Source: Nonomuraea dietziae | GTDB lineage: Bacteria; Actinomycetota; Actinomycetes; Streptosporangiales; Streptosporangiaceae | Direction: 5' to 3' | Assembly (NCBI RefSeq): GCF_014195505.1 | Contig: NZ_JACIBV010000001.1 | Location: forward strand, 4,092,001-4,156,000 | DNA: 64,000 nucleotides | Shown: one piece after another, positions 7,369 to 24,381 of the stretch | How the letters are laid out: every line of letters begins with the position of its first letter | How positions within the stretch are numbered: position 1 is the first letter of the stretch | Translations under genes and position numbers: made by a program | The notes under the pieces: generated by a model | What the model saw: only the letters and a program-made list of their open reading frames with translations | Database searches by the model: none | Told to the model about the DNA's origin: nothing

Positions 7369-7410
7369 GTGCCCCCTGTAGGATTCGAACCTACGCACCC
7401 GGCTCCGGAG
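7369..7410. repeat. attL, left copy of the 42-bp attachment repeat
   Basis: Identical over 42 bases to 24309-24350. It starts GTGCCCCCTGTAGG, ends GGCTCCGGAG, and differs at the next base on both sides. It corresponds to the tRNA-Arg 3' half from the anticodon loop through the T-arm to the acceptor 3' strand. It is not a functional tRNA because the 5' half is absent. Confidence 0.95.
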
Positions 7411-8066: not shown

Positions 8067-9287
8067 ATGCCATCGCTCAAAAAGGCACCTTTGCCGCCAG
8101 GACCAACCAAGACTTTTTTTGATAACCTACATGAACTTCACCTAAGGGCGGGCCAGCCAAGCACAAGAAAGATGGAAAGCGTCATCGGGAAAGGCGTTCT
8201 TTCGCATACAACTATCCATAAGACTTTCGCCGGAGATAAGGTCCCAGAGTGGGGACCAGTAGAACTAATAGTCGAATGCCTGGCAAGTATGTGTGGAGAT
8301 GTGCCAGATAAGACGACGTCGCGATTCAGAACGCTGTGGATTCAAGCCCGAGCCGGTCATGACAGTGATCTATATTTAGATGAGTCTATGCAGAAGGACG
8401 GCGAGACCACAGAGGAACCCGCAAGAGGGAAGCCGTCGGAATTTGGATCCGTCCCAACGCACTTTCGTCGCCTCGACGCAACCATAGGCGGCTTAAAGCC
8501 TGGCTCGTTGATAGCTATTATGAGCACGCCCTCTGAAGGTAAAAGCTGCCTGATTGTCGATTTAGCTAGAGCGGCATCAATGGCTGGCGTTGGAACGCTT
8601 CTATTTAGCTCTGAGATGTCTCGCGGAGAATATACGCTCAGAATGCTAGCATCGGAAGCACTCGTTGACATCACCAGTTTAAGGACTGGGCAACTAAGCG
8701 ACGAAGCATGGGCGCGCCTTGCTCGACGAATGTCCGAAGTTGCTGACGCACCTATGTATATTGACGCCCCTACCAATAAGTCCTGTAATCAACTTATCGA
8801 CGCCGTAAAGCGCAGCACAGAAAGACATAACATTGGACTAGTGCTTATCGACGGGCTTGGACTGCTAATTTCGCAAGAACATGCACAGTCGGGTGGCCAG
8901 CATGACGCAGGCAGCGCCCTAACCTCTCTAAAGACTCTCTCGACGCAACTCAACTTGCCTGTTGTGGTCACTGTAACTACAGAATATCCCCACGACGATC
9001 GCTACCACCTAGATCCCCCCACGAGCTGGGGGTTGCAACGAGCCGCCCGGCTGAGCGAATTGCGATACGGTCGTGAGATTTTTGAGATCGCCGACTTGGT
9101 TATCGCGATATATCGGCCAGACCACCGCGAGCCAGAAAGCCCTCGCGCAATGGAGGCCGACCTAGTTATCGCCAAGAATCGCTACGGGCCAACCGGCATT
9201 TCGACCGTGATTTTCCAGAATCAATTCATGCGCTTTACTAATATGCCGCCGATACCCACGGACAACCCGCCGTCCCTGCCCGCCTAA
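8067..9287 (+). CDS. HTH domain fused to a DnaB/KaiC-like RecA ATPase domain
   Basis: 406 residues. About residues 13-95 (TKTFFDNLHELHLRAGQPSTRKM, SHTTIHKTFAG, WGPVELIVECL) form the XRE-like helix-turn-helix segment that opens many multidomain actinobacterial signalling and NTPase proteins. Residues 125-392 form a DnaB C-terminal RecA fold: Walker A STPSEGKSC (153-161), LLFSSEMS, Walker B LVLIDG (258-263), ADLVIAIYRPD, and AKNRYGPTG (369-377) near the expected arginine finger. The DnaB N-terminal primase-binding domain is absent, so this is not the replicative helicase. The gene is clearly AT-richer than its neighbours and has at least four TTA leucine codons (in LYLDE, GGLKP, VDLAR, TSLRT), pointing to recent transfer and possible bldA control. 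Role unknown; regulator or defence ATPase are both possible. Confidence 0.75.
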   Translation: MPSLKKAPLPPGPTKTFFDNLHELHLRAGQPSTRKMESVIGKGVLSHTTIHKTFAGDKVPEWGPVELIVECLASMCGDVPDKTTSRFRTLWIQARAGHDSDLYLDESMQKDGETTEEPARGKPSEFGSVPTHFRRLDATIGGLKPGSLIAIMSTPSEGKSCLIVDLARAASMAGVGTLLFSSEMSRGEYTLRMLASEALVDITSLRTGQLSDEAWARLARRMSEVADAPMYIDAPTNKSCNQLIDAVKRSTERHNIGLVLIDGLGLLISQEHAQSGGQHDAGSALTSLKTLSTQLNLPVVVTVTTEYPHDDRYHLDPPTSWGLQRAARLSELRYGREIFEIADLVIAIYRPDHREPESPRAMEADLVIAKNRYGPTGISTVIFQNQFMRFTNMPPIPTDNPPSLPA

Positions 9288-9333: not shown

Positions 9334-10035
9334 TTAGTGCGCTTGTATAAGAGGGACAACCAACTCTTCCATGCTGGTCACCACGAGCTCAGCGCCAGCA
9401 TTGGCAAGTCGCTCAGCCTTTCCGGGCCGGTTTGCGTAGCCGACGGCAACGACCCCTGCATGTTTGCATGCCTCGACGTCAGTCACTGAGTCTCCAACCA
9501 GCAGGGCGAACGACGGATCGGCGGCCAGATGAATGAGCGCCTGGTCAAGGAGATGAGGATTCGGCTTCATGAGCGAGGGATCAGCTGTTGAGCGTGCCGA
9601 GACGTAGGCCACTCGGTCAGTGAGTCCACCCCGAGCGAGGAACGCCGTCACGGCAGCCACCGAGTTGTTGCTGACGATCCCCACGATCAGTCCCCTGTCG
9701 CGCGCCCGTTCTATGAGGTCCACCGCCCCTGGTGTCGGCCGCGCTGTACGGACCGCCTTCACCTCCAATTCGGTGAGTGTCCGCAGGGCAAGGCGGTTCA
9801 ACTCGCTACCGAGAGATGCACTGAACCGGAATACCTCCAAGGGGTCATCCGTCGCACGCACGGCAGGCGAGAGCACGGCGCCAGCCTGTTCCAAAGTGGC
9901 GCGAAGACTGGCCGCGACCGTCCGCGCCGGCAGTCCCGCGAAGATGTCGCACACGGGACCATCGAAGTCGAGGAGCAGGTATTGCACCTTGCCCATAACG
10001 GCCTGCACGGCTTCCGGCCCCGAGCGCGCCGTCAC
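9334..10035 (-). CDS. HAD-superfamily hydrolase (phosphatase-like)
   Basis: 233 residues from GTG 10035, which overlaps the stop of the GntR gene (GTGA) and has GGGAG upstream; ATG 9996 is an alternative. HAD motifs are all present: motif I LLLDFDGPVCD, motif II IVSNNS, motif III Lys in LMKPNP, motif IV LLVGDSVTDVEA. A helical cap lies between motifs I and II, as in phosphoglycolate-phosphatase-like enzymes. The family removes phosphate from small metabolites; the substrate here is unknown. The four-base overlap with the regulator implies coupled translation and a shared role, for example processing a ligand sensed by the GntR protein. Confidence 0.8.
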   Translation of the reverse strand: MTARSGPEAVQAVMGKVQYLLLDFDGPVCDIFAGLPARTVAASLRATLEQAGAVLSPAVRATDDPLEVFRFSASLGSELNRLALRTLTELEVKAVRTARPTPGAVDLIERARDRGLIVGIVSNNSVAAVTAFLARGGLTDRVAYVSARSTADPSLMKPNPHLLDQALIHLAADPSFALLVGDSVTDVEACKHAGVVAVGYANRPGKAERLANAGAELVVTSMEELVVPLIQAH

Positions 10036-10871
10036 GGCAACTCCCGAGCCACGTTGTCCCACACCGCGTCGAACCATGCGGACGACTGCTGCACGAACTG
10101 GGCTGACGTCGAATCCGGCCCATCGCTCACCGCGAAGTGGAACAGCTCGGTGTCCTTGCCCATCAGGTCAAACATCTCGACTGGCACCCCACCCAGGGCT
10201 ACGACATGCTCCGCGACAGCGTAGTAGCCGAAGAACGCCTCTTCTTTGTTGATGACATACAGCTTGAAGCGTGGCGGTTCCCCGCTGATCCGTACCTGAG
10301 CCGACGCCTGCGCCACCAGGCCCAGGTCTCGAAGCTCGTGAACGGATTCCACGATGGCCTGAGCATGCCGTGCCGTGATCTTTTCGGCTCGATCCCGGAA
10401 CAACGGCTCATCCTGTCCGTTGTCCACCCGGCACGGGAGAGACCAAGGGCGGCCTGTGTCTGGCAGAAGGAGCCGGATGGAGATGCGCTCAGGGATCAAG
10501 CGGCCAGCTCGGATGCTGTCGAGCGCTTCCTGCACTGCACCGTGCAGCGTCTCCCCGGAGAATCCGGCGAAGTCAATAGAGACCTCAGACCGCTTGAACG
10601 CCTCCTCAACGTGAGGGCGCAGGCCCACGGGGCGTGCGGTCTTCTCTCGGACGAACACGCCGCTCCCCTGTCGGGAGACGATCAGACCCTCTTCCCGGAG
10701 TTCCCGGATGGCCTGCTGGATCGTCTGCCGTGCCACACCGAAAGTCTTGGCGAGCTCCGGACCTGAAGGAAGCTTCTCCCCTGGCGCAAACTTCCTGGTC
10801 AGGATGGCCGCTCTGAGCTGCGTAGCTACCTGGAGATAGGGCGGACGAGGGTCATCCGGGTCGAGTCTCAT
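10032..10871 (-). CDS. GntR-type transcriptional regulator of the element
   Basis: 279 residues from ATG 10871 (MRLDPDDPRPPYLQVATQLR); the frame extends six codons further up. Residues 8-75 are a GntR winged helix (YLQVATQLRAAI, GEKLPSGPELAKTFGVARQTIQQAIRELREEGLI, GSGVFVRE). The C-terminal 180 residues do not look like the common UTRA or FCD ligand domains and contain RLLLPD and FKLYVINKEEAFFGYY. GntR-type repressors such as KorSA of pSAM2 control AICE excision and transfer, so this is a likely master switch. It faces away from the rest of the element across a 170-base intergenic region carrying three CTAG(S)CAAG boxes, and is coupled to the HAD gene. Confidence 0.85.
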   Translation of the reverse strand: MRLDPDDPRPPYLQVATQLRAAILTRKFAPGEKLPSGPELAKTFGVARQTIQQAIRELREEGLIVSRQGSGVFVREKTARPVGLRPHVEEAFKRSEVSIDFAGFSGETLHGAVQEALDSIRAGRLIPERISIRLLLPDTGRPWSLPCRVDNGQDEPLFRDRAEKITARHAQAIVESVHELRDLGLVAQASAQVRISGEPPRFKLYVINKEEAFFGYYAVAEHVVALGGVPVEMFDLMGKDTELFHFAVSDGPDSTSAQFVQQSSAWFDAVWDNVARELP

Positions 10872-10904
10872 GCCCCCAATGCTATCCATGCCTGAACAAC
10901 ATTC

Positions 10905-10971
10905 CTAGGCAAGTCTTGACATGACTAGCCAAGCCATTCAACATGATGCTTGTACAACCTGCCTAGCCAAG
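10905..10971. promoter_or_regulatory. Divergent control region with three CTAGSCAAG boxes
   Basis: CTAGGCAAG at 10905-10913, CTAGCCAAG at 10925-10933 and CTAGCCAAG at 10963-10971 lie in the same direction between the GntR gene and the rightward genes. A TTGACA at 10916-10921 with a loose -10 (CAACAT, 17 bases on) overlaps them and would drive rightward transcription. The placement suits autoregulation by the GntR protein. Binding is inferred. Confidence 0.55.
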
Positions 10972-11039
10972 CTGGTCAGCTGGTGGGGCGGTGGGAGGAC
11001 TGGCCTCCAAGCACGTCAGCAAGGAAGGGACCTCACGCG

Positions 11040-11210
11040 ATGATCCAGCCAACCAAGGCCAGCCGCTTCCTCCCGACACTGCTCGCAATCGGTGCCGTGT
11101 TCTTCATCGTTCGCGACCCCGTCAAGGCCGCCACCGTCGCCACCAGCGCGATGGATGGACTCCTGAAGGTCGCCGAGTCCTTCGCCACCTTCGCCTCGAA
11201 CCTCGGCTAG
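11040..11210 (+). CDS. Small single-pass membrane protein
   Basis: 56 residues from ATG 11040. One hydrophobic helix (about residues 10-24, FLPTLLAIGAVFFIV) is followed by an amphipathic Ala-rich tail (AATVATSAMDGLLKVAESFATFAS). It is the first rightward gene after the GntR control region, with GGAAGGGA 12 bases before the ATG. No function is known to me. Confidence 0.6.
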   Translation: MIQPTKASRFLPTLLAIGAVFFIVRDPVKAATVATSAMDGLLKVAESFATFASNLG

Positions 11211-11507
11211 ATATCCGCTCAGCCCGCAGCACCCCGCACAGCCAGAAAGACCCCTAGGAAGGCGGCCACCAGGCCGCGCGCCGCCAGGCTGTCGCACTTG
11301 ATCACTTGAGAACTAAATCCGGGCTACCGCCTCCCACCGAAAAGGCGACCCCGCGCGGCGAAGCTCCGCGCCTATCTCGTTCGCGACGCCCAGCACGCGG
11401 TTGGGGATCACGACGAACTCCAAGCCAAGACCAACGCCATGTGGCCCCGGAGACCAGCCGCTACCAACGAAACGGTCCCCGGGGCTCCTCAAAGAGGAGA
11501 TTTCACC
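11211..11507. other. Gap with possible remnant of a small gene
   Basis: Nearly 300 bases. A start-less open frame in phase with the next gene (YRLPPKRRPRAAKLRAYLVRD, then AVGDHDELQAK) has protein-like composition but no start codon after the stop near 11310. It may be a decayed upstream exon-like piece of a small AICE gene, or chance. Confidence 0.3.
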
Positions 11508-11642
11508 ATGCCACGTCAGACCACGGTCCACCACATCTCGCTCCACGCCAGCTGGCCGGACGGAGAGCCGCAGACCGTACGAGACGCCTACGACGCGCTT
11601 CTAGAGGAGCAGCGTCAGTCCGCGAAGGACCAGAAGCGGTGA
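11508..11642 (+). CDS. 44-residue protein of unknown function
   Basis: ATG 11508 follows AGAGGAGAT at 8 bases, a strong ribosome site; an upstream ATG at 11439 lacks one. The product is short, acidic to neutral and helical at the end (VRDAYDALLEEQRQ). Its stop overlaps the GTG of the next gene, which opens a chain of translationally coupled small genes. No family recognised. Confidence 0.5.
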   Translation: MPRQTTVHHISLHASWPDGEPQTVRDAYDALLEEQRQSAKDQKR

Positions 11643-11761
11643 GCGCCAAAACCAAGCCGCCATCGCCATGGCTTCCCCCAGGCACCCCAACGACCTGGGT
11701 GTGCCAGTGCGGGGGGATCAATCCCCGTTCCGAAACGACCTGCCAGAGGTGCAAGCGATGA
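11639..11761 (+). CDS. 40-residue RanBP2-like zinc ribbon protein
   Basis: Starts at GTG 11639, overlapping the previous stop by four bases, and ends in ATGA shared with the WhiB-like gene. After a basic Pro-rich head the sequence is W-V-C-Q-C-GGI-N-PRSETT-C-QR-C. This matches the W-x-C-x-C-x3-N-x6-C-x2-C spacing of small RanBP2-type zinc fingers, with the first pair one residue closer than usual. Such fingers bind RNA or protein. Too small for firm assignment, but all four cysteines and the Trp and Asn are in place. Confidence 0.55.
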   Translation: MSAKTKPPSPWLPPGTPTTWVCQCGGINPRSETTCQRCKR

Positions 11762-12078
11762 CCCGCCCCGACGTTCCGTTCTTCCCGCTCGCGGCTGACG
11801 CGCTGAATCTGGCCGACGCGTGGAGCGTGCTCGCCGAGTCCGGCGAGTGCCGTTTCGACCCTGACCTTCACGCCGGCCCCGACCGACCGGAGTCCGAGCA
11901 CGAGCGCGCCGCTCGGCTGCACGTGGCGCGCGAGCTGTGCGGTTCCTGCCCGGTGCGGGCACTGTGCCTGCGCTTCGCTCTGCAGGTCCGTCCCAAGGCC
12001 GGCGTCTGGGCGGCGTTCACCGCTGAGGAGATCGGCGAGCTGGCCCATGACCTCGCCGCGTTCGCGGAGGTGGCCTGA
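11758..12078 (+). CDS. WhiB-like iron-sulfur transcription factor
   Basis: 106 residues, starting in ATGA overlap with the zinc ribbon gene. Four cysteines in Wbl spacing: Cys31, Cys61, Cys64 and Cys70 (ELCGSCPVRALC), expected to hold a 4Fe-4S cluster. GVWA at 82-85 corresponds to the conserved Wbl G(V/I)WGG turn. The usual basic C-terminal AT-hook region is weak: the tail is acidic (AEEIGELAHDLAAFAEVA). Wbl proteins work with the primary sigma factor and respond to redox signals. On this element it may control the transfer or replication operon. The stop overlaps the next start. Confidence 0.85.
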   Translation: MTRPDVPFFPLAADALNLADAWSVLAESGECRFDPDLHAGPDRPESEHERAARLHVARELCGSCPVRALCLRFALQVRPKAGVWAAFTAEEIGELAHDLAAFAEVA

Positions 12079-12176
12079 TGGTCACCCTTTCCGTGAACAA
12101 CGTCTTCCATCTGCTGTGGCCGTGGCTGGCTTTCTTCGCCGCCCTCGCCCTCGCCTCGCTGTGGTGGGGGCGCTGA
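12078..12176 (+). CDS. 32-residue membrane peptide
   Basis: ATG 12078 shares its A with the WhiB-like stop (TGATG), and the TGA at 12174-12176 overlaps the next ATG. The peptide is one hydrophobic helix (VFHLLWPWLAFFAALALASLWW) with a short polar start. Tight coupling on both sides supports translation. Function unknown. Confidence 0.5.
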   Translation: MVTLSVNNVFHLLWPWLAFFAALALASLWWGR

Positions 12177-12559
12177 TGTCCCGCATCCGTGCAGCCTTCT
12201 GGGATCCGACCGGCAAGCGCTACGGCATCCCCACCTACCCCTGGCGGATGTCCCCGCCGCACCTGCTTACCATTCGCCAGCTGGCCGCCGAGGGGCTTCG
12301 ACCCGGAGGGCAGGGCGTACAGGCTCAGGTGCTGTGGCGCTCACGCCGGCACAGCGCGCCCGGTGTCCGCGCTGCCTACCTCTACGACATCCGCTTCGCC
12401 CTGCCGAAACGAGCAGCCACGCCCTGCCAGCTCGCCGCGCTGGTCAAGGCCAACGCCGCCCGCCGTACCTGCCCTGACTGCCTTCGTGACGTCGGCTACG
12501 TGCTGCCGCGCCACCTCGGCACCTGCCTGGACTGCGCGGCCCACGAGGCCGTCGCCTGA
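12176..12559 (+). CDS. AICE-type zinc-binding protein (RRQRL-motif family likely)
   Basis: 127 residues from ATG 12176, overlapping the previous stop. The middle has LTIRQLAAEGLRPGGQ, resembling the R-x-Q-L-x3-GLRPGG segment of the RRQRL-motif zinc-binding proteins common on actinobacterial elements. The C-terminus has four cysteines in two pairs: RTCPDCLRD and GTCLDCA, a zinc ribbon. ALPKRAATPCQLAAL sits between. Function of the family is not established; it occurs in transfer regions next to WhiB-like and spread genes, as here. Confidence 0.65.
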   Translation: MSRIRAAFWDPTGKRYGIPTYPWRMSPPHLLTIRQLAAEGLRPGGQGVQAQVLWRSRRHSAPGVRAAYLYDIRFALPKRAATPCQLAALVKANAARRTCPDCLRDVGYVLPRHLGTCLDCAAHEAVA

Positions 12560-12580
12560 CCTGTGAGGAGATCCGACTCC

Positions 12581-12736
12581 ATGCTTTCCATCCGCCTGTC
12601 CGGCACGCCCGCCGAGGTCGCCGACGCCGTGCTGACCCTACGCGAGGCGTTCCCCATCACCGCCATCAAGGGCCTGTGTTCGGCGATCCCGGCTCAGTCC
12701 AGCGTCCGCGTCTACGTGGAGGTCGGCGATGACTGA
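12581..12736 (+). CDS. 51-residue protein of unknown function
   Basis: ATG 12581 follows TGAGGAGATCC. The small protein (LSIRLSGTPAEVADAVLTLRE, then VRVYVEV) reads as a beta-alpha-beta unit. The last eight bases overlap the start of the DUF2637 gene, so the two are coupled. Similar tiny proteins sit before spread genes on other AICEs; role unknown. Confidence 0.55.
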   Translation: MLSIRLSGTPAEVADAVLTLREAFPITAIKGLCSAIPAQSSVRVYVEVGDD

Positions 12737-13763
12737 CCGCGCTCCGACTCCCACCGCGCCGCGCCCGCTGACCGAGGGCGAGCACACCGCCGTTGCCGTG
12801 ACCGCCGGCGTGACCGGCGTGCTGGGCATGCTCGGCTTCGTCAACAGCTTCGACCGCGTCGCCGACGCCGCCGAATCGTCGTTCGGCTGGTTCGCCTGGA
12901 CCGTGCCGCTCGGCATCGACCTCGGCATCGCCGTCTTCTCCGCGCTGGATATCGTGCTGGCCCGCCTCGGCATGCGCCTTCGCTGGCTGCGGTTGATCCC
13001 TTGGGCGCTGACCGCCGCGACGGTCTACCTCAACGTGGCCGACTACCTCAAGGCCGACCCCGTCGACTGGTTCGCGGTGGTGGCTCACGCGCTGCTGCCG
13101 CTGCTGTGGGTCGCCGCCGTGGAGGTCGGCGCGCACGTCATCCGCAAGCGCGCCGACCTGGTCAAGCCCGACCGGATGGACGGCATCCGCCGCTCGCGAT
13201 GGCTGCTGGCCCCGCTGCCCACGTTCGCCCTGTGGCGGCGCATGGTGCTGTGGGAGGTCCGCAGTTATCCCGAGGCGCTGGGACACGAGCGTGACCGCAT
13301 CCTGGCCCGCACTGACCTACAGGACCGCTACGGCAAGCTGTGGCGATTCAAGGCCACCCGCCGCGAGTGCGCCCTGTACCGCCTCGGCGAACTGGCCCCC
13401 GCCGACGCGCCCATCCGCGCCGAGGCCGTCCGGCTCACCCCGCCCGCGCCGCCGCCCTCCGAACTGCCGCCCGCCCCGCGCAAGCGCCCTACGACAAGCG
13501 GTAAGCGAACCCGGCTGGCGAAGCGCCCCACGGCGCCGGACGTGGACGACCTGATGCCCCTCGGCTGGCAGATCGCCGCCCACCTCAAAGCTAACGGCCT
13601 CACGCTCACCCGTGACCGGCTACTGACCGCCGTCCGCGACACCGGACAGTCCATCTCCTCCGACCGCGCCTCGGCGCTGCTGGCCCGGCTCAAGACCGAA
13701 GCACCCATCGACCCCGCAGGGGCCGTACCGGCTCAGCGCCAGCCGGAAAGCGAGGCCGCGTGA
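12729..13763 (+). CDS. DUF2637 membrane protein, spread (Spd)-type
   Basis: 344 residues. The N-terminal half has four hydrophobic segments (roughly residues 20-45, 53-76, 87-107, 113-135), the DUF2637 layout, including WTVPLGIDLGIAVFSALDIVLA. The C-terminal half is soluble: a basic region (LWRRMVLWEVRSYPEAL), a Pro-rich linker, and a helical DNA-binding-like end (GWQIAAHLKANG, DRLLTAVRDTGQSISSDRASALLARL). Spd proteins help the spread of transferred DNA through the recipient mycelium with TraB. The gene is coupled upstream and downstream, which places it in the transfer operon. Confidence 0.75.
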   Translation: MTDRAPTPTAPRPLTEGEHTAVAVTAGVTGVLGMLGFVNSFDRVADAAESSFGWFAWTVPLGIDLGIAVFSALDIVLARLGMRLRWLRLIPWALTAATVYLNVADYLKADPVDWFAVVAHALLPLLWVAAVEVGAHVIRKRADLVKPDRMDGIRRSRWLLAPLPTFALWRRMVLWEVRSYPEALGHERDRILARTDLQDRYGKLWRFKATRRECALYRLGELAPADAPIRAEAVRLTPPAPPPSELPPAPRKRPTTSGKRTRLAKRPTAPDVDDLMPLGWQIAAHLKANGLTLTRDRLLTAVRDTGQSISSDRASALLARLKTEAPIDPAGAVPAQRQPESEAA

Positions 13764-13954
13764 CGCACAGCCCGGATCATCCTCTCGGACCGTCCGCCCG
13801 CACCGACCCGACCATCCGACCGGACGGTGCACGGACCAACCGCGCATCGTCCTCCATCGCAACCGACCAGGGCGCGGCCTCAACTCCGCCAAGAACCGTG
13901 GCCGCGCCCTGCCACCCCGCAACCCGCAACGAGCACGAGGTGACCCCATCATGA
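13760..13954 (+). CDS. 64-residue linker ORF between spread and translocase genes
   Basis: GTG 13760 overlaps the spread gene stop, and its TGA lies in the ATGA start of the translocase gene. The product is polar, rich in Pro, Thr, Asp and Arg and probably disordered. Its first residues (THSPDHP...) resemble the start of the next protein (THNPHEP...). It may chiefly keep ribosomes moving into the translocase gene. Confidence 0.4.
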   Translation: MTHSPDHPLGPSARTDPTIRPDGARTNRASSSIATDQGAASTPPRTVAAPCHPATRNEHEVTPS

Positions 13955-16218
13955 CGCACAACCCGCACGAGCCCGCCGACCACTTCGACGACCCGGACCG
14001 GCGCCGGACGGACCACCCGGACGGACCAGCACACGACCGCACGGACGACAACGCGGACGGTCCCGGCGCGGAAGTCGTCCCCATCGAGTCCGCCCGCGCC
14101 GGACGGCACCCCTACCAGACCCCCGCGCCGGACGAGGCGCACCCGGACGAGGCGGACGGACCGCTGGTCTTGCACGGCCACGTCGTCCGCGTGGACCAGC
14201 CCGGCGGCGATGCCGATTGGCTCGCCCGCCTGGAGGTCCAGGCCCGCGAACGCCGCCCAATCGTGCCGCTGTGGCTGCGCTCCCGATCCGAGGCGGCCTC
14301 GGTCCTCAAGTGGGTCTCACGGCACTACCTGCACGTGACCGGCTACCACCTCACCCGCACCCCCAAGTACGGGCTCAAGCTGGCCGCCCGCGCGCCGCGC
14401 GGCGCCGTCTGGCTGGCCGGCGGCATGGTGCGCTGGACCTTCGACTGGGAGGGCGAGCCCGCCCGCCTGATCGCCGTCCAGAGGAACGACTACGACGCCT
14501 ACTTGAAGCTGTCCCGGCAGCGGGACGCCCGGGTACGGCTGCGCGTGCCCGTCGCCCTGGTGACCCTGGCCACGCTACTGCTGGCCGGCATCCTGATCGC
14601 TGCCAGCGCGCCGAGCATCGGCCAGTGGACCGCCCTGGGCGTCGCCCTCGCCGTCCTCGGCGTGTGCGGCAAGGTGCCGGACCGTCCGCTGCTCGACCGC
14701 GCCGTCCTCCGGCATGGTCTGGAGAAGCTCACCAGCGACATCGTGCTGCGCGCCCTCGGCTCTCTCGGCATCGCCGAGATCAACAAAGCGCTGTCCAAGG
14801 CGAGCAAGACCACTCAAGCCGACGCGATCCGGTTCAACGCGCCCATCATGCGCGACGGCCCCGGCTGGCGGGCGGACGTGGACCTGCCGCTCGGCGTGAC
14901 CGTCTCCGACGTCGTGGAGAAGCGTGACCGGCTGGCCTCCGGGCTGCGCCGCCCCCTCGGGTGTGTGTGGCCCGAGCCGATGCACGGCCAGCACCCCGGC
15001 CGCATGGTGCTGTGGGTCGGCGACACCGACATGAACACCGCCCGGCAACCGGCGTGGCCGCTGCGCCGTGGCGGGCAGGCCGACATCTTCAAGCCCATCC
15101 CGTTCGGCACCGACCAGCGCGGACGCCTGGTGGCGCTAACGCTGATGTTCAACAGCATGCTGATCGGCGCGATGCCGCGCGTCGGCAAGACCTTCTCCCT
15201 CAAACCACTGGTACTCGCGATGGGCCTGGACCCGATCGTGCAGGCCATGGTGTTCGAGCTGAAGGGCACCGGCGACCTGAGCTTCGCCGAGAAGTTCGCC
15301 CACGAGTACGCCTCCGGCCTGGATGACGAGACCATGCGACGCGCCCTGCTGGCGCTTCGAGCCCTGAAGGCGGAGCTGGTCAGCCACCGCTCGGGTGTCA
15401 TCGCCTCACTGCCCAAGGACCTGTGCCCGGAGAACAAGGTCACCCGAGCGCTGGCCGAACGCGTCTCGCTCGGGCTCCATCCGATCGGGCTGATCATCGA
15501 CGAGTGCCAAAACCTGTTCAGCCATCCGGCTTTCGGTGCCGAGGCCGGCGAGCTGGCCGAGTTCATCATCCGCGTCGGCCCCGCCATGGGCGTCTTCCTG
15601 ATCCTGGCTACCCAGCGCCCGGACAAGCGGTCCCTGCCCACCGGCATCGCCGCCAACGTCGGCATCCGGTTCAGCCTGCGGGTGATGGGCCAGACGGAGA
15701 ACGACATGATCCTCGGCACGTCGATGTACCAGAACGGCATCCGCGCCACCACCTTCACCGCCGAGGACAAGGGCATCGGCTACCTGGTCGGCGTGAAGAC
15801 CGACCCCCAGATCGTCAAGACGTTCTTCTTCGACGCACCCACCGCCGACCAGATCGCCGAACGCGCCCGTGACCTGCGCATCGCCGCCGGACGCCTGTCC
15901 GGGCACGCCGCCGGTCAGGCCCCCGAACACGAGGCCGCGCACGGCTTCGACCTGCTAAAAGACATCGCCAGCGTGGTGCCCACCGGCGAGGCCAAGGTGT
16001 GGTCGGAAACCGTCTGCGCCCGGCTGGCCGAGCTGCGGCCCGAGGTCTACACCGGCTGGGAGCCCGAACAGCTCGCCGCCGCTCTGGCCCCGCACGGCAT
16101 CGACACCATCCAGATCAGCCGTCGCATCGACGGCAAGCAGCTCAACCGGCGCGGCATCGACCGCTCCCACATCGCCGCCGTCATCACCGACCGTAACCAT
16201 AACCGGCCCACTGGATGA
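13951..16218 (+). CDS. TraB-type FtsK/SpoIIIE DNA translocase for conjugal transfer
   Basis: 755 residues. A disordered Asp/His/Arg-rich head of about 75 residues is followed by a domain ending in two adjacent membrane helices near residues 195-235 (VALVTLATLLLAGILIAAS, WTALGVALAVLGVCG). The FtsK motor carries Walker A MPRVGKTFS (about residue 408) and Walker B GLIIDECQN (about 513), with FELKGTGD and ILATQRPD also typical. The last 75 residues (LRPEVYTGWEPEQLAAALAPHG, DGKQLNRRGIDRSHI) look like the winged helix that reads clt repeats. TraB hexamers move double-stranded DNA between hyphae; no relaxase is needed. Candidate recognition repeats follow directly at 16230-16306. Confidence 0.92.
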   Translation: MTHNPHEPADHFDDPDRRRTDHPDGPAHDRTDDNADGPGAEVVPIESARAGRHPYQTPAPDEAHPDEADGPLVLHGHVVRVDQPGGDADWLARLEVQARERRPIVPLWLRSRSEAASVLKWVSRHYLHVTGYHLTRTPKYGLKLAARAPRGAVWLAGGMVRWTFDWEGEPARLIAVQRNDYDAYLKLSRQRDARVRLRVPVALVTLATLLLAGILIAASAPSIGQWTALGVALAVLGVCGKVPDRPLLDRAVLRHGLEKLTSDIVLRALGSLGIAEINKALSKASKTTQADAIRFNAPIMRDGPGWRADVDLPLGVTVSDVVEKRDRLASGLRRPLGCVWPEPMHGQHPGRMVLWVGDTDMNTARQPAWPLRRGGQADIFKPIPFGTDQRGRLVALTLMFNSMLIGAMPRVGKTFSLKPLVLAMGLDPIVQAMVFELKGTGDLSFAEKFAHEYASGLDDETMRRALLALRALKAELVSHRSGVIASLPKDLCPENKVTRALAERVSLGLHPIGLIIDECQNLFSHPAFGAEAGELAEFIIRVGPAMGVFLILATQRPDKRSLPTGIAANVGIRFSLRVMGQTENDMILGTSMYQNGIRATTFTAEDKGIGYLVGVKTDPQIVKTFFFDAPTADQIAERARDLRIAAGRLSGHAAGQAPEHEAAHGFDLLKDIASVVPTGEAKVWSETVCARLAELRPEVYTGWEPEQLAAALAPHGIDTIQISRRIDGKQLNRRGIDRSHIAAVITDRNHNRPTG

Positions 16219-16862: not shown

Positions 16863-16962
16863 GACCTCGACGGTACGTGAGCTGATCGCTTCGTGAAACA
16901 GCGTCGGCCGGGCGGCCAACGCGCGCCCGCACACCGTTTCGACCCCTGAAAGGAAGTCCGTC

Positions 16963-17410
16963 ATGTCCGGCGAGACCACGATCACCATCATCGGCCAACC
17001 TGACCGCCGACCCCGAGATGCGCTACACGCAGACCGGTACGGCTGTCGCCAGCTTCACCATCGCCTCCAGTGCTCGGACCTACAACAAGCAGGTTGAGCA
17101 GTGGCAGGACAGCGAAGCCCTGTTCATGCGCTGTAGCGCGTGGCGCGACCTCGGCGAGCACATCGCCGAGTCGCTAACCCGAGGAACCCGAGTCATCGCC
17201 AGCGGACGCCTGCGGATGCACACCTACGAGACCAACGACGGCGACAAGCGAACCGTCTACGAGATGACCGTGGACGAGATCGGCCCGTCGCTGCGATTCG
17301 CCACCGCCAAACCGCAGAAGGCCGCACGCAACGCGCACAACGGCCACGGCGGCGGCACCGCCGACCCATGGGCCAGCACCGCCCCGACAGGCGATGAACC
17401 GCCGTTCTAG
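16963..17410 (+). pseudogene. ssb: Single-stranded DNA-binding protein gene with a one-base frameshift
   Basis: ATG 16963 follows GAAAGGAAG and gives MSGETTITIIG. One extra C at 16995/16996 then shifts the frame. The rest (NLTADPEMRYTQTGTAVASFTIA, SWRDLGEHIAESL, RVIASGRLRMHTYE) continues in the next phase to 17410. Joined, it is an intact OB-fold SSB of about 148 residues ending in DEPPF, the conserved acidic tip. The shifted reading stops near 17099. The only in-frame start in the main frame is ATG 17018, which would lose the first beta strand. It may be a recent mutation, a sequencing error, or tolerated because the host supplies SSB. SSB would serve element replication. Confidence 0.8.
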
Positions 17411-18027: not shown

Positions 18028-18639
18028 ATGAGGTGCATGGACGTCACCCTGATGCACCTCCTGGAGAAGCCGTGCACCAGATGCGGCCACCAATGTGCGG
18101 TTCACACCGGAGGAGCCAGCCCCGAGGGGTGGGCCATCTACGAACCCATCTGGGCCAACGCGTGGGGCTGGTGCATGACCCCCGATTGCGAATGCCCGCA
18201 GCGCGAAGGAGATCTAGGGGAAGCCGACGAGTACAAGCCTCGCGCCCTAGGCGGCCGATCGCCGGTTGGCGACATCAGGCGACGTGTGCCACCCGCCCGA
18301 AGGGCCACCCCCACCCCGCTCCATGACCACGGCGCCACGGCATCCGTAGATGCCGCCTCTGGGAGCCCCCGAGACGCAGCCACACCTACCGACAGCCCGG
18401 ACAGCGAACCGATCTTCCTCGTCTACGACGGCGCCCGCTACCGGCTCTGGCACAACCGCATCGTTCTGGACTGGCACGAAGATCGCGCGCGGTGGGGCGG
18501 CGGACGCCAACGCCCCTGCCGGTTCTGCCGCCGCCCATGCCTACTCATCGACGGCGACGGACGCCCCGTCCACAAGGTGTGCCTGGAGCTGGCCACCACT
18601 GCCGGCCTGCTCACCCGGCACGAAGAACGCGCGGCATGA
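18028..18639 (+). CDS. Cys-rich two-part protein of unknown function
   Basis: 203 residues from ATG 18028 (ATG 18037 is an alternative). The N-terminal part has a cysteine set (PCTRCGHQCAVH, WCMTPDCECPQ) typical of a zinc-binding fold. A disordered Pro/Ala/Asp linker follows (about residues 70-125). The C-terminal part has a second set, CRFCRRPC, then KVCLELA. Two zinc modules joined by a flexible linker suggest a nucleic-acid or protein adaptor. It sits directly upstream of the PP-loop ATPase gene. Confidence 0.55.
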   Translation: MRCMDVTLMHLLEKPCTRCGHQCAVHTGGASPEGWAIYEPIWANAWGWCMTPDCECPQREGDLGEADEYKPRALGGRSPVGDIRRRVPPARRATPTPLHDHGATASVDAASGSPRDAATPTDSPDSEPIFLVYDGARYRLWHNRIVLDWHEDRARWGGGRQRPCRFCRRPCLLIDGDGRPVHKVCLELATTAGLLTRHEERAA

Positions 18640-18787: not shown

Positions 18788-19816
18788 ATGGGACGTCGAA
18801 TCTTCACGGCCGAACTGCTGCCCGGCATGCCGGACACCATCGGTCGCAAACCCGCCAAAGCCGAGCACGCCCCACCAGCCCGAACACTGGATGAGGCGAT
18901 CACCCGCAGCCACGACATCATCGCCGAAGCCCTTGACCGGTACCCGATCGTGGCCCGGCATGCACTGCTGTCCGGCGGCAACGACTCCACGCTAATGCTC
19001 CATCTCGTCCAGCCCTACCTGGACTCCTCTGAGCATGACGCGGTCGTACACGTCAACACCGGCATTGGCGTGGAGGAAACCCGCCAGCACGTGCGCGACG
19101 TGACCCGCGCGTGGAACCTGCCGCTGCGCGAGCTGCACCCGCGCGACTCCTACGATGACCTGGTTTTGGGACAGGTGATCGCTCGCAGCGGCAAGAACGC
19201 CGGAATCCGCCCAGTGTGGAAAGGCTTCCCCGGCCCAGCCGGACACGGCGTGATGTACCGCAGGCTCAAAGACGAACCGTTGCAACGCAACCGCGCCCAG
19301 GTCATCGGCACGCAAGGCCGTACCCGCAAGGTGCTGTATCTGGCGGGGATGCGCTGGGGGGAGTCCCAACGACGCATGCGCAACGCCGCCGAGATCGACC
19401 AAGAGGGCGGAATCGTCTGGTGCTCACCCCTGGTGCACTGGACCAACGCCCAGATGGCCGAATACCGACGCACCCGCCTCCTGCCCCAAAACGAGGTCTC
19501 CGCCCACCTACACATGTCCGGCGAATGCCTGTGCGGCGCCTTCGCCAAACCCGGAGAGCTAGACGAGATCGAGTTCTTCTACCCGCGCACCGCCTACCGC
19601 ATCCGCTCCCTGGAACAGCGCGTGAAAGCGGCCGGCATCCCGGCCTGCAAATGGGGACAAAAGCCCGTCGGCCAGTGCGCCCCCAAACCGGGCAGTATCG
19701 CCGGCCGCCTGTGCTCCTCCTGCCCAGCCCCCTTGCAAGGTCAGACCGACCTGATGGACATATGGGCCCAGCAGGGACTTCTCACCCAGCCCCTGCCGCA
19801 AGGTCGCGCGGCATGA
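18788..19816 (+). CDS. PP-loop ATPase of the PAPS reductase/DndC-like group
   Basis: 342 residues from ATG 18788 (GGAAG 9 bases upstream; GTG 18779 also possible). The PP-loop is LSGGNDST at 61-68. VHVNTGIGVEET (87-98) and LAGMRWGESQRR (186-197) are typical of the PAPS reductase superfamily. The last third carries Cys247, Cys249, Cys287, Cys297, Cys309 and Cys312 (GECLCGAF, ACKWG, CSSC), suited to an Fe-S cluster or zinc. The classic reductase C-terminus is absent, and there are no sulfate-assimilation genes nearby. The stop overlaps the prim-pol start (ATGA), so it is coupled to replication. Superfamily members adenylate a target before sulfur transfer, for example to DNA (DndC) or tRNA (TtcA). 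Its substrate here is unknown. Confidence 0.8.
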   Translation: MGRRIFTAELLPGMPDTIGRKPAKAEHAPPARTLDEAITRSHDIIAEALDRYPIVARHALLSGGNDSTLMLHLVQPYLDSSEHDAVVHVNTGIGVEETRQHVRDVTRAWNLPLRELHPRDSYDDLVLGQVIARSGKNAGIRPVWKGFPGPAGHGVMYRRLKDEPLQRNRAQVIGTQGRTRKVLYLAGMRWGESQRRMRNAAEIDQEGGIVWCSPLVHWTNAQMAEYRRTRLLPQNEVSAHLHMSGECLCGAFAKPGELDEIEFFYPRTAYRIRSLEQRVKAAGIPACKWGQKPVGQCAPKPGSIAGRLCSSCPAPLQGQTDLMDIWAQQGLLTQPLPQGRAA

Positions 19817-20709
19817 GCAGACCGCCACACGACACCACAGCCGCCGCTCTCAAAGCCGCCGCGCAAGGCTGGCCCGTCTTCCCTCTGGCCGTCGGCGACA
19901 AAGCGCCCCCGCGCGGCCTCACCGACTGGGAGAAGCGCGCCACCTGCAACCCCGACCAGATCCGCGCATGGTGGAAACGCGCCCCCTACAACATCGGCAT
20001 CGCCACCGGCCCGGCCGGCCTGGTGGTCATCGACCTGGACGTGCCCAAACCAGGCCAACACCCGCCCCGCCCGTGGGCCATGCCCGGCGTCCACGACGGC
20101 GCCGACGTCTTCGCGCTGATCTGCCAGCGTGCCGGCATCCCGCTGGAGTTGGAGACCTTCCAAGTCCGCACCCGGCGTGGCGGCCTGCACCTGTACTACA
20201 CCGCCCCGCCCTGCACCCGCATGCCCAGCACGAACGGCAGCGTGGGTTGGCTGATCGACACCCGCGCCTGGGGCGGCTACGTCGTCGGCCCCGGCAGCGT
20301 GGTTTCCCTGCTAGACGGCACCGGCCCCTACACCGTGCAGCACGGCATCGCGCCCGCCCCGCTGCCCCCCTCCCTGTTCAAGCTGCTTGAGTCCACACCG
20401 ATCCCGCCCAAGCGGCCCGTCCACGTCCCCATCCCCGACAGCCGCCATTCCGCCTATCTGCGCGCGGCTTTGGAGCGTGAGTTGTCGCACCTGGCCGCCG
20501 CCCTCCCTAGTCAGCGCAACCGCACTCTGTTCGGAACCGCCGCCGCCCTCGGCGAACTCGTCGCCGGCGGCGCCCTCCCCGAACAGGAGGTGAAAGAGCT
20601 GCTTGAACAGGGAGGGGGAGCGCTCGGACTGTCCCCCGGCGAAGTGGCCCGAACCGTCGCCTCCGGGCTGCGCCACGGCGCCCGCCGCCCTCGCCGCCTC
20701 ACCGCATAG
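19813..20709 (+). CDS. Bifunctional primase/polymerase (prim-pol) replication protein
   Basis: 298 residues, coupled to the PP-loop gene by ATGA. N-terminal prim-pol domain: AAAQGWPVFPL, then GIATGPAGLVVIDLDV with the catalytic D-x-D (Asp74, Asp76), TRRGGLHLYYTAP with the conserved His, and WLIDTRAWGGYVVGPGSV. The last 90 residues are helical (LSHLAAALPSQRNRTLFGTAAALGELVAGG), resembling the PriCT-like tail that links to the helicase part. The next gene supplies the ATPase. AICEs use RepSA, RepAM or prim-pol initiators; this one is of the prim-pol type. Confidence 0.88.
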   Translation: MSRPPHDTTAAALKAAAQGWPVFPLAVGDKAPPRGLTDWEKRATCNPDQIRAWWKRAPYNIGIATGPAGLVVIDLDVPKPGQHPPRPWAMPGVHDGADVFALICQRAGIPLELETFQVRTRRGGLHLYYTAPPCTRMPSTNGSVGWLIDTRAWGGYVVGPGSVVSLLDGTGPYTVQHGIAPAPLPPSLFKLLESTPIPPKRPVHVPIPDSRHSAYLRAALERELSHLAAALPSQRNRTLFGTAAALGELVAGGALPEQEVKELLEQGGGALGLSPGEVARTVASGLRHGARRPRRLTA

Positions 20710-20730: not shown

Positions 20731-21903
20731 ATGAGCCCTTCACCCAACGGCGCGGACCTTCTCGACCGGCTCCGCGCCTCTCTGACCCGGTATGTGATCC
20801 TGCCCAGTGCTGAGACCGCCGACGCGGTCACTCTGTGGATCGCCGCCACTCACGCCCAACCGGCGTGGGCGCATGCCCCACGGCTTGTCATCCGAGGCCC
20901 GGAGAAGCGGTGCGGCAAGTCCCGCCTACTCGACATCGTGGAGGCCACCTGTCACGAGCCGTTCATCACCGTCAACGCCACCAGCGCCGCCGTCTACCGC
21001 TCTATCACCGACGACCCGCCCACCATGCTCGTGGACGAGGCCGACACCATCTTCGGCCCCAAGGCTGACGGCAACGAAGACCTGCGCGGCCTGCTGAACG
21101 CCGGCCATCAGCGCAACCGGCCGGCCAAGCGCTACGACGTCAACACCAACTCCGTGCAGTCCATCCCGACCTTCGCCATGGCTGCGCTCGCCGGAATCGG
21201 TGCCATGCCCGACACCATCGAAGACCGCGCCGTCGTTGTCCGGATGCGGCGCCGCGCGCCCGGCGAGAGCGCCGCGCCCTACCGCCACCGCCGCGACCGC
21301 CTTCCACTACGCCGGCTCGCCGCCATGCTCGAACAGTGGCTACGCGCCGACCTGGCCACCCTGGAGCAGGCAGAACCCGCCATGCCCGTCGAAGACCGCG
21401 CCGCCGACACCTGGGAACCTCTCGTCATCGTCGCCGACCACGCCGGCGGCACCTGGCCCGAGCGCGCCCGCGCCGCCGCCGTGTCACTGACCGCCGAGGC
21501 CGACGACAACGGCCACACCTCCGCTCGAGTACGGCTGCTGGCCGCATGCCGGACCGCGTTCGGCCCCGACACCGCCCTGCCCACCGCCGTACTCCTGGAC
21601 AGACTCAGAGCCGACCCGGAAGGGGAGTGGAACGAACACGGCCCGGCCGGACTCACCGCGATGAAGCTCGGCACGATGCTGCGCGAGTACGACATCCGTT
21701 CGGCCAACATCCGCTTCTCCAACGGGCAGGCGAAGGGCTATCAACGGGCCGATTTCGCCGACGCTTGGGCGCGCTACTGCCCCTCCCTCGGACCCGTCCC
21801 CGAAGGCGACGTGGTCCCGTTCGAGAGGGGTAGCCGTCCCAGCCGTCCCAGCCTCGTCACCCCAGCTCAAAGCGGTACGGCTTCCGTCCCTGGGACGGCT
21901 TGA
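20731..21903 (+). CDS. DUF3631 AAA-type ATPase, replication helicase-like partner
   Basis: 390 residues from ATG 20731, with AAGGGGAGA upstream. Walker A is GPEKRCGKS (56-64) and Walker B is LVDEAD (100-105). Sensor-like NTNSVQSIPTFAMAALAGIGAMPDTIEDRAVVVRMRRR follows in short blocks, typical of DUF3631 proteins. The C-terminus (WNEHGPAGLTAMKLGTMLREYDIRS) fits the DUF3631 domain. It pairs with prim-pol upstream, together giving priming and unwinding. The last 75 bases of the gene lie inside an iteron and inverted-repeat array, so the C-terminal SRPSRPS segment is dictated by the repeats. Confidence 0.82.
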   Translation: MSPSPNGADLLDRLRASLTRYVILPSAETADAVTLWIAATHAQPAWAHAPRLVIRGPEKRCGKSRLLDIVEATCHEPFITVNATSAAVYRSITDDPPTMLVDEADTIFGPKADGNEDLRGLLNAGHQRNRPAKRYDVNTNSVQSIPTFAMAALAGIGAMPDTIEDRAVVVRMRRRAPGESAAPYRHRRDRLPLRRLAAMLEQWLRADLATLEQAEPAMPVEDRAADTWEPLVIVADHAGGTWPERARAAAVSLTAEADDNGHTSARVRLLAACRTAFGPDTALPTAVLLDRLRADPEGEWNEHGPAGLTAMKLGTMLREYDIRSANIRFSNGQAKGYQRADFADAWARYCPSLGPVPEGDVVPFERGSRPSRPSLVTPAQSGTASVPGTA

Positions 21904-22280: not shown

Positions 22281-23651
22281 GTGCTGACTCACGACGTCGT
22301 GATCTGGAGCATCCGCAACCGCAAGGGACGCGCCAAGCCGTACCAGCTTCGGTGGAAGGTCGGCACGGAGCCGAAGTCCAAGGCGTTCCTCACCAAGGCG
22401 CTTGCCGACAACTTCCGCGCCGACCTACTCAAGGCCGCCAAGGCGGGCGAACTCTTCGACACGGAAACCGGCCTACCCGCCTCCATGGTGGCCGCCGACG
22501 CAGAAGAGATACCTATGAGCTGGTACGAGTTCGCCGCCAAATACACCGCCATGCGGTGGCCCGGCGCTGCGGCGAAGACCCGCGAGAGCATCGTGGACAG
22601 CCTGGCTGTGACCACGTTCGCGATGCTAGACGGCGAAGCGCTCAATCTGCCCCGTAAGGACATCCGCGCCGCCATGCAATGGGCGTTGATCCCTCGCGAG
22701 GATGGCGCGGCCGTACCCACTGCGCTGGCCTCGACCGTGCGCATTCTCCGAAAGGCCACGCTCCCGCTCGCCGACATGGCCGATCCCATCGTCGCGCGTC
22801 GAGTGAGCGATGCCCTCGGCCTCACGCTGGACAGGCGACCCGCCGCCTCGGACACCGTAGCTCGCCGCCGCCGAGGGTTGAACACAGCCCTGGAGTACGG
22901 CATTGACCTCGGCGAGCTCAAGGAAAACCCGCTCAAGCGGATCAAGCAGAAGAAGATAGCGAAGGACGACGCCGTAGATCGACGTGCCGTCGTTAACCCA
23001 GAGCAGGCGCGGGAACTGCTTACCGCCGTGTCATACGTCGGGAGCTGGCACCGTGCCCGAGGCCGCCGCTTGATGGCCTTCTACGCCACGCTGTACTTCG
23101 CGGGTGTCCGGCCTGCCGAGGCCGTAGGACTACGACGAGACGACTGTCACCTGCCCGAAGAAGGATGGGGCCTGCTCACCCTGACCAAGACCCGTCCTAG
23201 CAGCGGAAAGCAGTGGACGGACACCGGCACCGTTCACGACCTGCGCGGCTTGAAGCAGCGCGACACAAGCGCCGTCCGTGAGGTCCCCATCCCGCCCGAG
23301 CTGGTTACCATCCTTCGCGCCCACCTGGAGGAGTTCGGCACCGCACCTGATGGACGCATGTTTCGCAATGAGCGCGGCGGCGTGCTCGGTGCTTCCACCT
23401 ACTCGCGAGCGTGGGAGGAGGCGCGCCGACTCGCTTTCACCCCTCAACAGGTGGCCTCTCCGTTGGCCGGACGACCCTACGACCTGCGACACGCCGCCCT
23501 GTCTACCTGGCTCAACGCCGGAGTGGACGCGACCGAAGTAGCGTCCCGCGCGGGCAACAGCGTGGAGGTACTTCTCAAGCGCTATGCGAAATGCCTCGAT
23601 GGCCGACAAAAACAGAACAATTCGAAGATAGAGGCAGCGCTCGAACGCTGA
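22281..23651 (+). CDS. int: Tyrosine-type site-specific integrase
   Basis: 456 residues from GTG 22281 (GGGAAGG upstream). N-terminal arm-binding part (RNRKGRAKPYQLRWKVG), core-binding SAM-like domain, then the catalytic domain from about 235. Arg277 (FAGVRPAEAVGLR), Arg403 (YDLRHAALSTWL) and the nucleophile Tyr435 (LLKRYAKCL) are in place. The His box reads PYDLRH and the later His is Asn426 (AGNSVEVLL), both common in actinobacterial element integrases. It acts on the 42-bp core in tRNA-Arg(CCG) and lies about 660 bases from attR. Confidence 0.95.
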   Translation: MLTHDVVIWSIRNRKGRAKPYQLRWKVGTEPKSKAFLTKALADNFRADLLKAAKAGELFDTETGLPASMVAADAEEIPMSWYEFAAKYTAMRWPGAAAKTRESIVDSLAVTTFAMLDGEALNLPRKDIRAAMQWALIPREDGAAVPTALASTVRILRKATLPLADMADPIVARRVSDALGLTLDRRPAASDTVARRRRGLNTALEYGIDLGELKENPLKRIKQKKIAKDDAVDRRAVVNPEQARELLTAVSYVGSWHRARGRRLMAFYATLYFAGVRPAEAVGLRRDDCHLPEEGWGLLTLTKTRPSSGKQWTDTGTVHDLRGLKQRDTSAVREVPIPPELVTILRAHLEEFGTAPDGRMFRNERGGVLGASTYSRAWEEARRLAFTPQQVASPLAGRPYDLRHAALSTWLNAGVDATEVASRAGNSVEVLLKRYAKCLDGRQKQNNSKIEAALER

Positions 23652-24308: not shown

Positions 24309-24350
24309 GTGCCCCCTGTAGGATTCGAACCTACGCACCCGGCTCCGGAG
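24309..24350. repeat. attR, right copy of the 42-bp attachment repeat, inside the tRNA gene
   Basis: Identical to 7369-7410 and covering the tRNA-Arg 3' half including the anticodon loop. The element thus rebuilds a functional tRNA gene on integration. Confidence 0.95.
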
Positions 24351-24381
24351 GCCGGTGCTCTATCCCCTGAGCTAAGGGGGC
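24310..24381 (-). tRNA. tRNA-Arg(CCG)
   Basis: The minus strand folds as a full cloverleaf: acceptor GCCCCCT/AGGGGGC, D-arm GCTC/GAGC, anticodon stem CCGGC/GCCGG with loop CTCCGGA (anticodon CCG, codon CGG), and T-arm GTAGG-TTCGAAT-CCTAC. The discriminator base is A and CCA is not encoded. Its 3' half is the attachment site of the element, and the 5' half is original chromosome. Confidence 0.96.

Follow-up and report, generated by a model that had tools for sequence, protein, structure and literature searches.

A phage-type PP-loop protein in the replication module of a Nonomuraea AICE and its co-occurrence with host DndC

The question raised by the locus described here is what a PP-loop protein of the PAPS reductase superfamily might do beside the primase/polymerase of a mobile element. 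The window, namely the whole stretch of 64,000 nucleotides from the soil actinomycete Nonomuraea dietziae that was analysed, contains an element of this kind. An earlier note, made from the DNA letters alone, had regarded its PP-loop protein as part of a possible undescribed modification system of AICEs.

The element and its PP-loop gene

The element spans about 17 kb enclosed by 42-bp direct repeats, of which the left one (7369..7410) is identical to the 3' end of tRNA-Arg and the right one (24309..24350) lies inside the tRNA-Arg(CCG) gene (24309-24381, minus strand). Between them the plus strand encodes a DUF2637 (Spd-like) membrane protein (12729..13763), an FtsK/TraB-like DNA translocase of conjugation (13951..16218), a single-strand DNA-binding protein (SSB; 17018..17410), a Cys-rich protein of 203 aa (18028..18639), the PP-loop protein (18788..19816), a bifunctional DNA primase/polymerase (Prim-Pol; 19813..20709, Pfam Prim-Pol 3.8e-41), a DUF3631/RepAM replication protein (20731..21903, DUF3631 3.5e-66) and a tyrosine integrase (22281..23651). 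The combination of tyrosine integrase, tRNA att repeats, FtsK-type Tra and RepAM/Prim-Pol bears out the earlier classification of the element as an AICE, with the RepAM naming and the defining features taken from PMC3218068. Just within the left repeat (8067-9287) is a gene for a protein with a DnaB-like helicase C-terminal domain, whose GC3 is 0.53 as against 0.8-0.9 in most of the element. The first ~12 codons of ssb lie in a different frame from the rest: in the region 16890-17060 the product starts as MSGETTITIIG and resumes in the next frame as NLTADPEMRYTQTG, an apparent frameshift or an assembly indel error. Several other elements have homologs of the Cys-rich protein close to their PP-loop gene; in a prophage a similar stretch is fused to a SLOG (YAcAr) domain.

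The PP-loop ORF runs from an ATG at 18788 to a TGA at 19814-19816 (342 aa; GC3 0.80), and its stop overlaps the prim-pol start (19813) in an ATGA; both the coordinates and the overlap had been given correctly in the earlier note. Comparison with its two closest relatives yields a dN/dS of 0.11-0.13, which shows that the ORF is a real gene constrained by purifying selection. For prim-pol the corresponding values among these three copies are 0.49-0.59 at similar dS; thus, the PP-loop gene evolves much more slowly than its neighbour and is under strong purifying selection. It is the sole match to PF01507 in the window, which contains no second PAPS_reduct or DndC gene, and no dndB, dndD or dndE was recognised among the genes of the element that were examined, consistent with the earlier observation that sulfate genes and a dnd cluster are absent from its vicinity.

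Family membership and relationship to other PP-loop enzymes

A match to Pfam PAPS_reduct (PF01507; 1.8e-9, 38.3 bits against a cut-off of 22.5), an SGGxDS-type PP-loop and a predicted fold with Z-scores of about 16 confirm the previously proposed placement of the protein in the DndC/CysH superfamily. Within this superfamily it belongs to a known, phage-borne and uncharacterised "PAPS reductase-like" family, PHROG 424 ('phosphoadenosine phosphosulfate reductase'), as shown by a profile match at 6.9e-28 and by invariant columns common to phage and haloviral proteins. Its viral relatives comprise 25 records, from actinophages, Rhizobium phages and haloarchaeal viruses, and its plasmid relatives 8 records, from haloarchaea and actinobacteria; others are found at no fewer than 187 places in IMG/VR and in genomes of Nonomuraea, Actinomadura, Acrocarpospora and Streptomyces. 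The window protein shares 73-88% identity with its closest counterparts in AICEs. The PHROG 424 proteins ReqiPine5 gp02, ChewyVIII gp79 and Ruby gp65 are 41-46% identical to it and display identical invariant motifs, but the phage copies lie beside other replication genes, whereas the window gene is part of an AICE replication module. The gene is not specific to AICEs, the family being mainly phage-borne.

An alignment of 74 sequences has invariant columns which include S62, G63, G64, D66 and S67 of the PP-loop SGGNDS (residues 62-67; 18971..18988), T91, and G146, P148, G149, H153, L160 and K161 of a family motif GFPGPxxHxxxYxRLK (residues 146-161; 19223..19270). They further include G187, R189, E192 and R196 of a GxRxxExxxR motif common to CysH and DndC (residues 187-196; 19346..19375), E257, and the cysteines C247 and C249 of a CxC (19526..19534) that forms the first half of a conserved four-Cys site. 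The second half is a CxxC (19712..19723), whose C309 and C312 are retained in at least 90% of the sequences. All six cysteines noted earlier as a possible Fe-S or zinc site are present, but conservation is limited to these four; in comparisons with 18 and 74 homologs, C287 varies and C297 is almost unique to the window copy. The PP-loop, the GxRxxExxxR motif and the CxC...CxxC arrangement persist from AICEs through phages to haloarchaeal viruses. In one genome (G310) two copies of the gene are split at an identical place, such that the C-terminal CxxC is cut from the main frame.

The AlphaFold model (pLDDT 85, pTM 0.78, with a C-terminal part of low confidence) matches CysH, CysD and APS reductase with Z-scores of about 14-17, and also the TtuA/NcsA thiolases (Z 12-13), FAD synthetase, TilS and LarE. 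The structure comparison proposed earlier thus recovers a CysH-like fold; DndC and SspD chains are absent among the Foldseek/VIA matches listed, which has no bearing on the fold relationship. The resemblance to CysH (PAPS/APS reductase) and CysD extends to the PF01507 match and a GIRRDES-type motif. However, CysH possesses a catalytic C-terminal Cys and a CC pair, and the PP-loop protein falls far under the cut-offs of the curated cysH and APS-reductase models (37 bits against 154, and 23.9 bits against 165, respectively). The catalytic Cys of the KTECGxH motif is absent in all 18 aligned relatives in which it was sought, and the window protein has no APS-reductase-type CC pair; the host's own CysH has both. 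An ordinary PAPS reductase serving sulfate assimilation is rejected on the missing catalytic Cys together with the scores under the cut-offs, in agreement with the earlier reading. Outside the window the host encodes its own CysH (C1:2.55 Mb) and CysD (6.44 Mb), as well as a true chromosomal DndC at 6.34 Mb, which is 2.2 Mb from the window gene.

Profile scores lie in a similar range, roughly 22-28 bits, for the CysD and CysH of the host and for most DndC proteins, with 21 bits for SspD; being roughly equidistant from CysD, CysH and DndC, the family is best seen as a separate branch rather than as specifically DndC. Searched over the whole genome, the DndC model TIGR03183 matches the chromosomal DndC and not the window gene, and an SspD search likewise has the chromosomal DndC as its sole match; a PADLOC scan recovers only BrxP (3.5e-4) and no SspD. 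The protein shares with SspD and DndC the PP-loop, an xPxP...RLK loop, a GxRxxE motif and Cys pairs: its family motif can be aligned with GYPAPxxxFRWCTERLK in DndC and LPSPQMRWCTKNLK in SspD. It differs from them in that the third Fe-S Cys of the DndC/SspD loop (RWC) is replaced, scores amount to only about 17-27 bits, and there are no dnd/ssp operon partners. An alignment with one SspD sequence (hhalign probability 84%) continues past the catalytic domain to take in SGCYFC, a helical stretch and a Trp, with SspD bearing a terminal CxxC of its own, so that the two layouts are roughly collinear into the C-terminal part. The shared loop and this collinearity point to the DNA-sulfur branch. The [4Fe-4S] tRNA thiolases TtuA and NcsA also resemble the protein in fold and in an Fe-S-type Cys set, but that match is restricted to the PP-loop domain and leaves the C-terminal CxxC part uncovered.

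Genomic context and association with host DndC

The proximity to prim-pol is not peculiar to this element, as the gene recurs in AICE replication modules: in ten elements, spread over several genera, prim-pol follows it downstream. These are the element of the window, another in that genome with a second copy, and elements of Nonomuraea, Actinomadura, Acrocarpospora and Streptomyces genomes and of G310. The adjacency described in the earlier note thus holds more widely, but the ATGA coupling is confined to three close relatives and general coupling to prim-pol can be rejected. Elsewhere prim-pol starts 130-750 nt downstream, or about 1.6 kb in the case of G310, and the two genes may be separated by another ORF or an SSB. 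The gene therefore belongs stably to some AICE replication modules without a specific tie to prim-pol. It is a minority gene, found next to 6 of the ~95 DUF3631 places in the host family. The second AICE-like locus of the same genome (C1:6030000-6049999) encodes an 88% identical PP-loop protein and keeps the ATGA, with prim-pol proteins that are 53% identical. We found no paper joining AICEs, prim-pol and the PP-loop gene.

In phages the neighbours include DnaB/AAA, MCM, DnaN, RecT, YqaJ and Prim-Pol proteins and DNA methylases. One group of related phages (L116, L103-L105, L098, L102 and L093) has a NifU/SufU-like scaffold adjacent or nearby and a glutaredoxin nearby, and some of its members also encode a second PP-loop-like protein (MRHVIMFSGGIGSW). 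No single partner gene was conserved throughout the 79 groups of loci, the SufU, glutaredoxin and second PP-loop genes being confined to subsets, and neither dndB/D/E nor any other dnd/ssp partner was recognised next to the gene in any locus seen.

The new observation of this analysis is that, within the host family, the PP-loop gene is found mostly in hosts bearing DndC. Among 341 genomes, 11 have the PP-loop gene and 24 have a DndC above the curated cut-off; DndC is present in 8 of the 11 and in 16 of the 330 others (Fisher p=2.5e-8, with an expected overlap of 0.8). DUF3631 itself is weakly associated with DndC (12/80 versus 12/261). When only AICE-positive (DUF3631) genomes are considered, DndC is found in 7/8 with the PP-loop gene as against 5/72 without it (p=1.9e-6), and the association also holds inside the genus of the host (p=0.0016) and inside a second genus, g55, whose membership was taken from handle order (p=2e-4). 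This persistence among AICE-positive genomes and in two genera argues against a chance effect of genomes rich in mobile elements. Two of the three PP-loop genomes without DndC are fragmented; substitution by SspD in these hosts was considered and rejected, as no strong SspD is present there (best 53-54 bits). DndC mostly lies on a different contig or at a distance from the PP-loop gene, the separation in G310 being 30 kb from one copy. The association emerged post hoc in one family, and a small sample of Streptomyces, in which the PP-loop gene is rare, does not display it (1/6 versus 3/70, p=0.29); hence the link is strong in the host family rather than demonstrably universal. The co-occurrence favours a link of the PP-loop protein to DNA sulfur modification.

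The window strain carries dndB, dndC and dndD (C1:6343881-6345194 and positions 10789-15640 of the extracted locus L157), with an Mrr-like nuclease and a GHKL ATPase downstream. The DndFGH restriction genes, sought with TIGR03237, were matched nowhere, and the controls were likewise unmatched. A frameshift near residue 148-176 splits dndD, whereas all other DndD genes that were inspected are in a single frame over the part seen. This frameshift may be an assembly error. Since ssb and dndD each show a shift of one frame, and each may be either broken or affected by an assembly indel error, the state of the Dnd system in this strain is uncertain.

Possible roles of the protein

Given the above observations, we tentatively favour, at a probability of roughly 0.35, the interpretation that the protein is one of the PP-loop ATP pyrophosphatases that also include DndC and SspD, here borne by a mobile element, and that it acts as an ATP-dependent Fe-S/sulfur enzyme on replicating element DNA with a tie to host phosphorothioation. 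Such an enzyme would activate a nucleic-acid phosphate or base at the expense of ATP, and the four cysteines would hold an Fe-S cluster or a persulfide. Sulfur might be drawn from the cysteine desulfurase/SufU relay of the host, a proposal modelled on the documented transfers from DndA to DndC (PMC10853773) and from SspA to SspD (PMC7188994), and placed on newly replicated element DNA, which might alternatively be given some other mark. Alone or with host DndDE, this mark could allow the element to survive in hosts with DNA phosphorothioation and to pass from one to another. The same tentative interpretation draws on the invariant active-site and Cys motifs, the CysH/thiolase fold, the DndC/SspD-type loop, the association with DndC, and neighbours that include replication, methylase and SufU genes; counted against it are an association that is not seen in Streptomyces, the equal profile distances, the replaced RWC Cys, the missing dnd/ssp partners and the frameshifted host dndD. 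A more specific and more doubtful version is that SspD/DndC-like enzymes of elements and phages insert sulfur in their own DNA as it is replicated, whether alone or together with host DndDE, and constitute a one-gene thio-modification self-mark or counter-Dnd system that goes by the name 'PAPS reductase'. The gene is present in many phages, archaeal viruses and conjugative elements, where it is labelled as a PAPS reductase or an auxiliary metabolic gene. The sequence contradicts this label, and the co-occurrence with DndC provides a concrete lead to a function.

NAD synthetase, GMP synthetase and TilS are PP-loop enzymes that work without sulfur. They match the model at Z 12-14, and the four cysteines, arranged as CxC and CxxC, are able to bind zinc, which is compatible with ATP-dependent adenylation or ligation of an unspecified substrate around a structural zinc site. 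Against this unlikely alternative are the nearest folds and motifs, which come from the sulfur-handling branch, and the SufU neighbour in some phages. That neighbour and the Fe-S-type Cys set would suit a thiolase, and with the structural matches to TtuA, NcsA and TilS (Z 12-14) they allow for thiolation or adenylation of tRNA or a nucleotide, in the manner of TtuA, NcsA or TtcA, as an aid to the element or phage during replication. We consider this improbable, given that no tRNA-binding domain was found in the protein, that its C-terminal extension is SspD-like and its neighbours are replication genes, and that the association with DndC would be left unexplained.

That association is accommodated by a further and likewise improbable alternative, counter-defence, in which a DndC/SspD look-alike makes no modification itself and disturbs phosphorothioation by the host or shields the element from PT-dependent nucleases. 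A phage antagonist of Dnd, JSS1_004, is known, albeit of another kind (PMC12345140), and an Mrr-like nuclease lies downstream of the host dnd locus. However, the invariant active-site residues in the relatives suit catalysis more than a decoy, the family is common among phages whose hosts are unrelated, and no association with DndC was seen in Streptomyces. The customary annotation as an auxiliary metabolic gene, a PAPS/APS reductase boosting sulfate assimilation, is consistent with the family name, the PF01507 match and the viral papers that class such genes as cysH AMGs, but it is very improbable in view of the low cysH score, the missing KTECGxH Cys and CC pair, a host already equipped with CysH and CysD, and the absence of sulfate genes nearby.

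Another mobile-element PP-loop protein without a known substrate is the CysH-like protein of type IV-B CRISPR systems, CasCysH (PMC8175902). In genome G509 (C1:52000-68000) a type IV-B CRISPR-like operon, csf1-cas11-csf2-csf3, was recognised by eye with a weak csf2 match, and its CysH-like gene occupies 9484-10332 of that locus. Unlike the window protein, this CasCysH has no CxC/CxxC site and is unmatched by the family profile. These differences, along with the absence of a csf2 match in the window genome and the exclusively AICE-type neighbours of the PP-loop gene, led us to reject an identity with CasCysH.
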